Of a stretch of 64,000 nt of DNA, positions 45,886 through 48,871 are shown in pieces. The position numbers were made by a program, and so were the translations under genes. Source of the stretch: Oceanihabitans sediminis. Lineage in GTDB: Bacteria > Bacteroidota > Bacteroidia > Flavobacteriales > Flavobacteriaceae. The stretch is taken from contig NZ_QPIG01000001.1 of the NCBI RefSeq assembly GCF_003337215.1, positions 682,001-746,000 of the forward strand, given 5' to 3'. The notes under the pieces were generated by a model. The model was given only the letters and a program-made list of their open reading frames with translations, had not been told where the DNA came from and made no database searches. The number at the start of each line of letters is the position of its first letter. The first letter of the stretch is position 1.

Positions 45886-46494
45886 ATGGCTTTCGAATTA
45901 CCGAAATTAAAATATGCATATGATGCTTTAGAGCCTCATGTTGATGCACGTACAATGGAAATACACCATTCAAAACACCACCAAGGTTATACAAACAACT
46001 TGAATAACGCAATTAAAGATACAGATTTAGAAGGAAAATCTATTGAAGATATTCTTACTAATTTAGATATGAAAAACGGAGCTGTTAGAAATAACGGAGG
46101 AGGTTTTTATAACCACTCATTATTCTGGGATGTAATGAATCCTGAAGGAAAAGGACGTTTGTCTGGAGAATTAAAAGATGCTATTGAAGCAGCTTACGGT
46201 TCTTTTGATGCTTTTAAAGATGCTTTTTCTAAGGCTGCAGCTACACAATTTGGTTCAGGATGGGCTTGGTTATGTGTGCACAAAGGAGGGAAAGTGGAAG
46301 TTTGTTCTACACCAAACCAAGACAACCCATTAATGCCAGGAGTTGGTTGTGGAGGAACACCAATCTTAGGATTAGATGTTTGGGAACACGCTTATTACTT
46401 AAACTACCAAAACAGAAGACCAGATTATATTGAAGCTTTCTTTAATGTAATTAACTGGAATGAAGTTGAAAGACGTTACGCAGAAGCAAAATAA
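45886..46494 (+). CDS. sodA: Superoxide dismutase, Mn-type by sequence
   Basis: A 202-residue cytoplasmic dismutase. Metal ligands are expected at His27 ([12 protein letters not shown]), the His in NHSLFWDVM, and Asp and His in [21 protein letters not shown]. The [13 protein letters not shown] and [14 protein letters not shown] blocks resemble MnSOD rather than FeSOD, although Bacteroidota enzymes are often cambialistic. There is no signal peptide. It is a single gene with its own terminator; the gap behind it contains two structured repeats. Confidence 0.95.
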
Positions 46495-46520
46495 GTCAAG
46501 AAACTTATTCATAATATTGA

Positions 46521-46550
46521 AAAGCAAATCCGTTAGGGTTTGCTTTTTTT
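46521..46550 (+). terminator. Intrinsic terminator of sodA
   Basis: AAAGCAAATCC and GGGTTTGCTTT (one G-T pair) form an 11-bp stem followed by a T-run. Confidence 0.85.
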
Positions 46551-46594
46551 GTTTTAAGATACATAGGTGATTTTTAATCTGTTTCTTAAAAATG

Positions 46595-46666
46595 AAAAAA
46601 GGTGAACGAGAGTTCACCTTTTTTGCCCCAAATCTACCATAAACTTAACCTACTTATGTTATGGTA
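46595..46666 (+). ncRNA. Structured element, copy 1
   Basis: A perfect 13-bp hairpin (six A-T pairs, then GGTGAAC/GTTCACC) with loop GAGA (46608-46611) is followed directly by GCCCCAAATC. Then comes a second potential stem TACCATAA (46635-46642) with TTATGGTA (46659-46666). The block 46625-46666 is 41/42 identical to copy 2. Because one difference turns an A-T pair into a G-U pair only on the plus strand, plus-strand RNA is favoured. I cannot say whether it is transcribed. The Flavo-1 RNA motif known from Flavobacteria is a candidate identity that I have not been able to check. Confidence 0.5.
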
Positions 46667-46795
46667 AGCCCAAATATATGTACGCTTTTTGGAATAATCT
46701 AAAAATATTAGATAAACTGCTTATTTATTAGTCTAATGGTGTTAAATAGTGTTTGTTAGCTGTTTTACTTCAGGATTTTAGTAATGTATAAAAAT

Positions 46796-46869
46796 AAGAA
46801 ATGGTGATCGAGTGATCACCATTTCTTGCCCCAAATCTACCATGAACTTAACCTACTTATGTTATGGTA
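46796..46869 (+). ncRNA. Structured element, copy 2
   Basis: A perfect 14-bp hairpin AAGAAATGGTGATC/GATCACCATTTCTT with loop GAGT (46810-46813) is followed by GCCCCAAATC. Then TACCATGA (46838-46845) can pair with TTATGGTA (46862-46869), using a G-U pair. It lies about 200 bases from copy 1 in the same orientation. The stem differs from copy 1 at paired positions on both arms while the loop GAGW and the block after the stem are conserved, a covariation pattern. Confidence 0.5.
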
Positions 46870-46972
46870 CAGCTAATTTAGGTTTATTTATTACATTAAT
46901 TTAATTTTTTAGACAAAATACATCTTTATTAGTTTAAGTGTAATTTGTTTAAAATGAACAACTTGCATTTAA

Positions 46973-48871
46973 TTAGTATGCGCGTTCTTCGTTACCTTCG
47001 AAAAAGTTGATGAATGCTCTGTTTACAACTCTATTACCACCATCTGTAGGGTAATCTCCTGTAAAATACCAATCACCAAGATTTTTCGGACAAGCCTTAT
47101 GTAAATTAGCTACCGGTTGGAAAATCACTTTTACTTCCGCATTGATACTTTCGTCACTTAGTAATTCAGAAATCTTATCTGATATTTCCTCGTCTGTAAA
47201 TAAGTCGTAAAGTTCTTTTACGTAATTTTTAACCTTTGCGTCTTCTAAGTTTACTTGCTTTTTACATTTATTGTAAACCTCTTCAACTAAATGATACTTA
47301 TTATTGTCTTCTAAAAGCGCTAGCATGGCTTTAAAAGCAACTAAACCTTCTAGTCTAGCCATATCAATACCATAGCAATCTGGGTAACGGATTTGTGGAG
47401 CAGAGGAAACTATAATGATTTTTTTAGGGTTAAGCCTATCCATCATTTTAAGGATACTCATTTTTAATGTAGTTCCCCTCACGATACTATCATCTATAAT
47501 AACCAAGTTGTCTGTTGGTTTAATAACGCCGTAAGTAACATCATAAACGTGAGCCACTAAATCGTCTCTACTACTATCTTCGGTAATAAAAGTTCTTAGT
47601 TTAACGTCTTTAATCGCAATTTTTTCAATTCTAGGTCTTTCGTCAAGAATTTCAATGACACGTTCTTTAGAAAGTTGCCCATTACCATCTATAATAGCTT
47701 GTGTTTTCTTTTGATTAAGAAAATCTTCAACCGATTCAATCATCCCGAAGAAAGAAGTTTCGGCTGTATTAGGGATGTATGAAAATACTGTGTTGGCAGT
47801 ATCGTTATTAATTGCTTCTAAAACTTTTGGCATTAATAACTTACCAAGCGTTTTTCTTTCTTGATAAATTTCTGCATCACTTCCTCGAGAGAAATAAATA
47901 CGTTCAAAAGAACAAGCTTTTCTTTCTAAAGGTTCTAATATTTTCTGAATAGATACTTCTCCAGATTTTTTAGTGATAATAGCATGACCTGGCTCTAATT
48001 CTTTTACATCATCAAAATCTACATTGAAAACTGTTTGAATAACAGGTCTTTCTGAAGCTACTACAACTACCTCGTCATCTTGGTAGTAATAAGTTGGTCT
48101 AATTCCAGCAGGGTCACGTAATACGAAAGAATCTCCGTGTCCTAAAAGTCCTGCCATTGCATAACCACCATCCCAGTTTTTTGCAGATCGCTTTAAAATC
48201 TTAGCAACATTTAATCTTTCTGCAATTAATGGAGAGCATTCGTTTTTGTTATACCCTTCTTTTTTTAGTTTTTTGTAAATCTTGTCTACAGAGTCATCTA
48301 AGAAATGACCAATTCTTTCCATTATAGTAATGGTGTCTGTATATTCTTTTGGGTGCTGACCAAGGTCTATCAGGTTTTTGAATAATTCTTTAACGTTTGT
48401 CATGTTAAAGTTACCTGCTAGAATAAGGTTTCTGTGCATCCAGTTATTTTGTCTTAAAAATGGATGAACACTTTCTACACTGTTTTTACCAAAAGTTCCG
48501 TAACGTACGTGGCCTAAAAGCACTTCGCCTATATAAGGAATGTGTTTTTTCTGTATGGCAACATTGTCTTGGTATTCTGGATGTGCATTAAGCTCTTTAT
48601 TGATTCTTTGATTTATTTGATCAAAAATATCCTGAATAGGTTGTTGTGCTATAGAGCGAACTCTACTTATGTACCTTTCACCTGGTTTGGTATCTAGTTT
48701 AATACTTGCAAACCCTGCTCCATCTTGCCCACGGTTATGCTGTTTTTCCATCATTAGGTACATTTTATTTACGCCGTAAAATGCAGTACCATATTTTTCT
48801 TTGTAAAATTCTAATGGTTTTAAAAGTCTTATGTGTGCAATTCCACATTCATGTTTTAAAGCATCGCTCAT
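46973..48871 (-). CDS. purF: Long-type amidophosphoribosyltransferase (PurF) homologue
   Basis: A 632-residue class II amidotransferase. It would transfer ammonia from glutamine to PRPP, the first step of purine synthesis. The nucleophile is Cys9 in HECGIAHIRL, so an eight-residue propeptide must be removed, as in the Bacillus enzyme. NTAETSFFGMIE and the PRPP-binding loop LVIIDDSIVRGTT identify the phosphoribosyltransferase domain. The protein is about 120 residues longer than E. coli PurF; the extra length is at the C-terminus (about 515-632) and within the glutaminase domain. Bacteroidota often have two PurF paralogues, so this one could have a specialised role. It heads a minus-strand run with a PfkB kinase, RNase H and purN. 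Confidence 0.85.
   Translation of the reverse strand: MSDALKHECGIAHIRLLKPLEFYKEKYGTAFYGVNKMYLMMEKQHNRGQDGAGFASIKLDTKPGERYISRVRSIAQQPIQDIFDQINQRINKELNAHPEYQDNVAIQKKHIPYIGEVLLGHVRYGTFGKNSVESVHPFLRQNNWMHRNLILAGNFNMTNVKELFKNLIDLGQHPKEYTDTITIMERIGHFLDDSVDKIYKKLKKEGYNKNECSPLIAERLNVAKILKRSAKNWDGGYAMAGLLGHGDSFVLRDPAGIRPTYYYQDDEVVVVASERPVIQTVFNVDFDDVKELEPGHAIITKKSGEVSIQKILEPLERKACSFERIYFSRGSDAEIYQERKTLGKLLMPKVLEAINNDTANTVFSYIPNTAETSFFGMIESVEDFLNQKKTQAIIDGNGQLSKERVIEILDERPRIEKIAIKDVKLRTFITEDSSRDDLVAHVYDVTYGVIKPTDNLVIIDDSIVRGTTLKMSILKMMDRLNPKKIIIVSSAPQIRYPDCYGIDMARLEGLVAFKAMLALLEDNNKYHLVEEVYNKCKKQVNLEDAKVKNYVKELYDLFTDEEISDKISELLSDESINAEVKVIFQPVANLHKACPKNLGDWYFTGDYPTDGGNRVVNRAFINFFEGNEERAY

Follow-up and report, generated by a model that had tools for sequence, protein, structure and literature searches.

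What is the duplicated element in the gap between sodA and purF of Oceanihabitans sediminis, and what would it do there? The window, that is, the whole stretch of DNA that was analysed, comprises 64,000 nucleotides. Two elements were found as first described, at 46595–46666 and 46796–46869, the former with a hairpin of 13 bp and a GAGA loop, the latter with one of 14 bp and a GAGT loop, and each with a 42-nt block that is identical at 41 of 42 positions between the copies. This block matched twice in the window and never in 100 shuffled sequences. The absence of a coding frame, also noted at the outset, was borne out: none of the open reading frames of at least 40 aa lies inside a copy, and one of them on the minus strand (46399–46617) overlaps the end of copy 1. 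A frame in the block (ATG GTA GAT TTG GGG) was considered by eye and rejected, its end varying between the copies with the length of the A-run.

Read on the minus strand, each element presents in order a direct-repeat operator, a −7 box of the TAnnTTTG type, a 5′ stem-loop with the invariant loop GUAGG, the invariant unpaired linker AGAUUUGGG, and a Rho-independent terminator (Table 1). The element itself reads NACCAUAACAUAAGUAGGUUAAGUU[U/C]AUGGUAGAUUUGGGGC on this strand, followed by a hairpin with a U-rich tail. A terminator scan of positions 46450–47000 returned exactly three terminators (shuffle mean 0.1), the two minus-strand hairpins and that of sodA on the plus strand; the perfect hairpin that had been placed ahead of the block is the 3′ terminator and no 5′ element. 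According to the available text of PMC9723704, the sigma-A element of Flavobacterium is TAnnTTTG at −12 to −5. In the window, the end of such a box lies 5 nt ahead of the element in copy 1 and 4 nt ahead in copy 2, and by this position rule (PMC9723704) the RNA would begin with base 1 or 2 of the element. The pattern TAnnTT[TAC]G occurred within −20 to −6 in 102 of 149 distinct upstream sequences, compared with a mean of 4.4 (maximum 9) in 200 shuffles. Thus a promoter of its own and a Rho-independent terminator, without a coding frame, by which a small RNA (sRNA) gene is recognized, are present in the sequence.

Table 1. Features of the sodA–purF gap, in window coordinates. R1 is a covariance model built from 57 distinct copies; PWM, position weight matrix.
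Feature	Position	Strand	Evidence
sRNA copy 1 (sodA-proximal): 5′ stem-loop, linker, terminator	46593..46666	−	R1 104.1 bits; this copy is in the R1 training set
sRNA copy 1, predicted ends	start ~46666, end ~46590	−	inferred from −7 box and terminator
sRNA copy 2 (purF-proximal), architecture as copy 1	46795..46869	−	R1 97.0 bits; training sequence
sRNA copy 2, predicted start	~46868	−	boundaries from −7 box and terminator
Rho-independent terminator, copy 1 (13 pairs, U-rich tail)	46595..46624	−	terminator scan
Rho-independent terminator, copy 2 (14 pairs, U-rich tail)	46796..46827	−	terminator scan
−7 promoter box TATATTTG, copy 1	46671..46678	−	box at the same place in most of 149 upstream sequences
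−7 promoter box TAAATTAG, copy 2	46873..46880	−	box at the same place in most of 149 upstream sequences
Tandem direct-repeat operator, copy 1 (two boxes, 20-nt period)	46706..46741	−	joint PWM 27.2; site in the PWM fit
Tandem direct-repeat operator, copy 2	46907..46942	−	joint PWM 29.9; site in the PWM fit
purF, same-strand upstream neighbour	46973..48871	−	scan: no terminator between purF and copy 2
sodA, convergent neighbour	45886..46494	+	own terminator at 46519-46548

The structure was assessed in alignment A3. The 89 chosen sources had supplied 173 matches; 150 of them, giving 128 distinct rows, make up the alignment, which was fitted to the covariance model. Standard pairs occupy 98.5% of cells and both-sided changes occur in 13 of 22 pairs; none of 500 shuffles, which ignore phylogeny, reached any of five covariation measures, and in slid structures the paired share dropped to 30–58%. 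The variation is carried by the terminator stem, with double changes in 11 of 12 pairs. The 5′ stem is nearly invariant (double changes in 2 of 10 pairs), so little of the covariation evidence comes from that stem itself, and the loop and linker are identical in all 128 distinct rows. When A3 is read as minus-strand RNA, its non-Watson–Crick cells comprise 88 G-U, 3 A-C, and 39 other mismatches. This asymmetry, together with the terminators, promoter boxes, and operator, places the RNA on the minus strand and not on the plus strand as initially proposed. The preliminary description was thus right in seeing a novel structured small RNA with covariation, which extends far beyond the two copies, but its strand, its order of parts, and its link to the Flavo-1 motif did not hold.

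Within its own genome the element occurs in these two copies only (BLAST, E≤0.001), and it is present in all seven genomes of the genus, the six relatives having three nearby copies each. The third copy of these relatives, which the own genome does not have, carries GGGAC instead of GGGGC ahead of the terminator. Across Flavobacteriaceae (199 genomes from 198 genera), the window sequence as query matched 169 genomes at E≤0.1 and model R1 matched 163 at E≤1e-6, the other 36 being without an R1 match at that threshold. The 163 positive genomes hold one copy (37 genomes), two (72), three (32), four (16), five (5), or six (1), and more than one copy is thus found in 126. The repeat is real, and a decayed local duplication, allowed for at the outset, does not describe it; it is a pair of predicted sRNA genes on the minus strand. 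In a class-wide draw, R1 matched 4 of 198 genomes at E≤1e-5, all of them Flavobacteriaceae. In an order-wide draw, 64 of 196 genomes matched at E≤0.01. Best scores range from 72 to 104 bits in the 26 genomes of the own family and do not exceed 41.8 bits in the 38 outside it, several of which matched on both strands; the latter weak matches are treated here as chance, without proof that they are. Viral contigs gave no exact match to one 34-nt pattern of the element.

A scan of named genomes yielded at least 116 loci, at least one contig being present twice. The genera among the matches listed include Lacinutrix, Winogradskyella, Aquimarina, Salegentibacter, and Flavobacterium, alongside broader Bacteroidota labels. 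One MAG titled Algicola, a name that NCBI taxonomy places in the Gammaproteobacteria, likewise has purF and sodA beside the element and is probably a mislabelled flavobacterium. Among the matches listed, 93 of the 102 loci that offer 700 nt of flank or more have purF upstream in the orientation of the element; it lies within 160 nt in 81 loci, and the median distance between the purF match and the core is 122 nt. Where the flank is 900 nt or longer, 81 of 97 loci have sodA downstream in convergent orientation; both genes are present in 66 of 84 loci with enough flank. In some genomes copies lie away from purF and sodA. Copies beside sodA tend to have TAnnTTTG and U at one core position, and copies beside purF tend to have TAnnTTAG and C at that position, with exceptions to both; the U-type, sodA-side and C-type, purF-side copies are two paralogue types kept in many genera. 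A regulator related to sodA or to PurF, as had been suggested, finds no support in these data, in which only the location beside both genes is conserved. In the window, the RNAs have no gene ahead of them in their own direction up to the convergent sodA, which makes a cis-acting leader unlikely at this place.

Upstream of the promoter, the proximal operator box has the consensus ~GCnkTTyRTCTAAAA. When the boxes were fitted separately, two boxes stood 20 nt apart in 124 of 148 upstream sequences, and the proximal box found its best upstream match exactly 20 nt off in 116 of 148, compared with 3.8 (maximum 8) in 30 shuffles. LytTR repeats are described in the available text of PMC6193735 as 9-letter units just upstream of the promoter, with spacers mostly of 12 and sometimes of 11 or 13 bp. 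Two direct repeats with a spacer in the range of 11–13 bp, upstream of a promoter, are what we observe here. As in the LytTR operators of PMC6193735 and PMC4227749, so far as their available text goes, the repeats are direct and precede the promoter, and the 20-nt period corresponds to the 11-bp spacer class; the differences are that this is the minority class and that the operator here has an extra invariant C. Because the repeat geometry matches that of LytTR repeats (PMC6193735), it is reasonable to suppose a LytTR-like activator. The loci of about 3.3 kb around the LytTR genes of the own genome contained no operator in seven of seven cases (best score 11.1), so that a LytTR-like regulator is something we infer. 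In one of the seven LytTR matches (L322, G000:C15:4351-4617), the open frame contains an in-frame TAG.

The reach of the operator was examined with the pattern CNNTTNRNC-N10-GYNNTTNRTCTA, the reversed pattern serving as control. It gave 33 sites in the seven genus genomes compared with 1 for the reversed pattern, and 64 sites in 60 family genomes compared with 12; 28 of these 60 genomes have no site under this strict pattern. In own and relative sequence totalling 1.26 Mb, 13 sites reached or exceeded a PWM score of 16, four of them sRNA promoters; reversed sequence had none. The genus sites other than sRNA promoters precede genes for LRR, dodecin, DUF3078, and secreted proteins, and all four long genus operator proteins that were scanned (L302, L381, L382, and L383) carry a T9SS sorting domain. 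In a wider draw, the 44 sites in fetched loci comprised 15 sRNA promoters and 29 others, of which 18 led to proteins scanned whole (unselected plus selected genes), 5 to proteins cut by the end of the locus, and 6 to no ORF of 60 aa. A T9SS sorting domain scored over the cut-off in 8 of the 18 (seven of type B and one of type A, from seven genera); the remaining ten are two ECF-type sigma factors, an acyl carrier protein, ATP synthase subunit A, and six unassigned proteins. In the own genome, which has 11 T9SS type B matches, the operator was found at 1 of 10 checked, with gene starts estimated. A sizeable minority of the sites belong to T9SS genes, which is much more than these genes make up of a genome; the regulon is not confined to them. 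Collectively, we regard this as moderate evidence, from sequence, that the operator is common to the sRNA and to surface-protein genes.

Several individual sites may be recorded here. The operator pattern precedes an acyl-carrier-protein gene at position 1500 of L353, with a leader judged by eye to be alike at position 1500 of L346, and ECF-type sigma factor genes in two genera (L331 and L348). Strong sites are followed by no ORF of 60 aa at position 1198 of L358 and 1289 of L359 and by a short one only at position 1500 of L349; at position 1500 of L239, L242, and L258, what follows the site looks by eye like a promoter box and a terminator hairpin. These orphan sites may drive other small RNAs.

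As for partners, neither Hfq (PF17209) nor RRM_1 (PF00076) was matched in any of the seven genus genomes; the control matches were in 5 of 14 and 2 of 14 genomes, respectively. Targets were sought by scoring how well the linker or the loop pairs with the translation-start regions of 675 genes, drawn from about 30% of the own genome. Pairing at these 675 gene starts was not enriched over coding windows relative to shuffled seeds. The TIR/CDS ratio of the linker was equalled by 9 of 40 shuffles at −14 kcal/mol, 15 of 40 at −12, and 27 of 40 at −10; its TIR counts alone were equalled by 4, 6, and 3 of 40 shuffles, the coding windows having risen too. Shuffles did as well as the loop in pairing with the start regions of the 675 genes. 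Pairing of the loop with the 16S anti-Shine-Dalgarno tail was dismissed, since 29% of shuffled loops equalled it. Genes with TTTGCCCC ahead of the start (a TonB-like gene and DUF3078) were likewise set aside: by eye these sites are −7 boxes followed by C-runs, and they are therefore probably outside the mRNA. In an LRR gene, the leaders CCCAAATC (L233) and TTCCAAATC (L260), immediately ahead of the start codon, are complementary to the linker of the sRNA; this gene also has the operator, and its leader lies at or near the predicted mRNA start. We take this complementarity as a lead only. With no target test positive, the base-pairing model rests on anatomy and analogy.

Comparison with known RNAs gave no family to which the element could be assigned. 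A cmscan of the window against Rfam returned only a tRNA at the gathering threshold, no Rfam 15 family reached its gathering score in the region, and Flavo-1, named earlier as a family to compare with, is absent from the 19 Rfam matches of the region at E≤5. The best of these is STnc50 on the plus strand (25.7 bits; cut-off 55), and the best on the minus strand are STnc320 (22.0; cut-off 50) and FuFi-1 (21.9; cut-off 59.6). The literature searched contained no description of the RNA; the supplementary sRNA lists of PMC9723704 and PMC5395568 were outside the comparison, and the RNA may be listed among the flavobacterial sRNAs there. We conclude that this is a small-RNA gene family absent from Rfam 15 and from the literature searched, although Rfp18 or another of the Rfp sRNAs may be the same RNA. 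As far as the available text of PMC9723704 goes, Rfp18 of Flavobacterium psychrophilum is, like the RNA here, a flavobacterial sRNA with strong predicted structure and conservation beyond the species, and its deletion lowers the mRNA of two secreted metalloproteases; in the literature searched, to the extent of its available text, it is the only flavobacterial sRNA tested by deletion. Its predicted pairing region is the third stem-loop, and the available text (PMC9723704) does not mention tandem copies, sodA, or purF, the two RNAs being likened by description only.

By analogy, the RNA would come closest in mode of action to FopS of Bacteroides, a group of multicopy sRNAs, as presented in the available text of PMC11697453, yet we do not class it as a member. 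Like the RNA here, FopS/GibS are multicopy Bacteroidota sRNAs with sigma-A-type promoters; FopS gives bands of ~65-70 nt, has a shared seed, and represses translation of the outer-membrane protein SusC. FopS lies within Bacteroidaceae at 12–15 copies per genome, with the RRM protein RbpB as its binding partner (same available text), whereas the present RNA belongs to another family, stands in tandem at one locus under a direct-repeat operator, and comes from a genus in which no RRM_1 was found. Regarding the range of FopS, the class-wide R1 matches were all in Flavobacteriaceae (4 of 198), on the assumption that Bacteroidaceae were in the draw and with the FopS letters outside the comparison. 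In other phyla and under other regulators, Qrr, LhrC, and the Cia-dependent csRNAs are encoded by several near-identical sRNA genes with a common regulator. They are likened here by this multicopy arrangement under a common regulator, not by homology. All three are named as multicopy sRNAs in the available text of PMC11697453.

Taken together, the element is probably a multicopy, Hfq-independent, trans-acting base-pairing sRNA that is co-activated with surface-protein genes by a direct-repeat (LytTR-like) regulator. The sequence evidence for its gene anatomy, strand, and breadth is strong; we infer its expression, regulator, targets, and mechanism. Each element would be a separate minus-strand gene for a regulatory RNA of ~75 nt. 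An activator that binds direct repeats, judged LytTR-like from the geometry of its site, would occupy the boxes ~50 and ~70 nt upstream and turn on the sigma-A-type promoter, giving an RNA predicted to run from the base of the 5′ stem-loop to the Rho-independent terminator. The unpaired loop and linker would serve as seeds for pairing with mRNAs in trans without Hfq, and the tandem copies would raise the dosage. The RNA would be both part and tuner of a cell-surface/secretion regulon, a membership suggested by the operator that it has in common with T9SS surface-protein genes.

The deep sequence invariance could equally mean protein binding, and a minus-strand RNA that acts in this way, as a sponge or as part of a ribonucleoprotein rather than by pairing with mRNA, is unlikely but to be reckoned with. 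It would suit a 5′ domain that is nearly wholly invariant, paired positions included, the negative seed-target enrichment, and the several copies in most positive genomes, but the unpaired loop and linker are among the most invariant letters, as expected of seeds, no candidate protein was found, and Hfq and RRM_1 were not found in the genus genomes. Processing of the sRNA from the 3′ UTR of the purF mRNA, with the promoters of the copies secondary, appears improbable: the shared strand, the short distance from purF, and the terminator-free interval between purF and copy 2 in the window agree with it, and against it the second and third copies mostly have their own operator and −7 box.

Still less is to be said for an element acting as DNA, in the form of terminators or of protein or recombination sites for the convergent purF–sodA pair, which we hold to be very improbable. 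The location is conserved, and the terminator of copy 2 may end the purF mRNA too, because the scan found no other; sodA, on the other hand, has its own terminator, a mere terminator would require neither an invariant block nor a promoter nor an operator, and in some genomes copies lie away from both genes. The protein-binding or recombination site offered in the preliminary description is in addition disfavoured by the promoter, terminator, and G-U pattern. An RNA read from the plus strand, with a 5′ hairpin followed by the block, is scarcely credible. Both stretches fold better than shuffles on either strand. With z-scores of −4.9 and −6.0 for the plus strand and the less extreme −3.5 and −5.3 for the minus, folding alone would not pick the minus strand. 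In the two copies alone, a G-U at one position is kept on the plus strand, which had been the original argument for it, but this position is an unpaired bulge in the family consensus (A3 column 27, with C in 67 and T in 59 of 128 rows), and the terminators, promoter boxes, operator, and wobble asymmetry all favour the minus strand.

Returning to the trans-acting, base-pairing sRNA, we tentatively extend it to a broader possibility, which we think has less than an even chance: that a family-wide sRNA free of Hfq and RRM proteins, an absence seen at the level of the genus only, is the RNA arm of a direct-repeat (LytTR-like) regulon for T9SS surface display, in which one activator would drive the tandem sRNAs as well as the surface genes, and expression of the surface mRNAs would then be restrained or sharpened by the sRNAs. 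Annotation pipelines would gain a new RNA family, and the RNA would bear on how sRNAs act without Hfq in flavobacteria. Kept nearly letter for letter in most of the sampled genera, and having a clear operator and a regulon made up in part of surface-protein genes, the sRNA would offer a tractable handle on how secretion and surface display are controlled after transcription.
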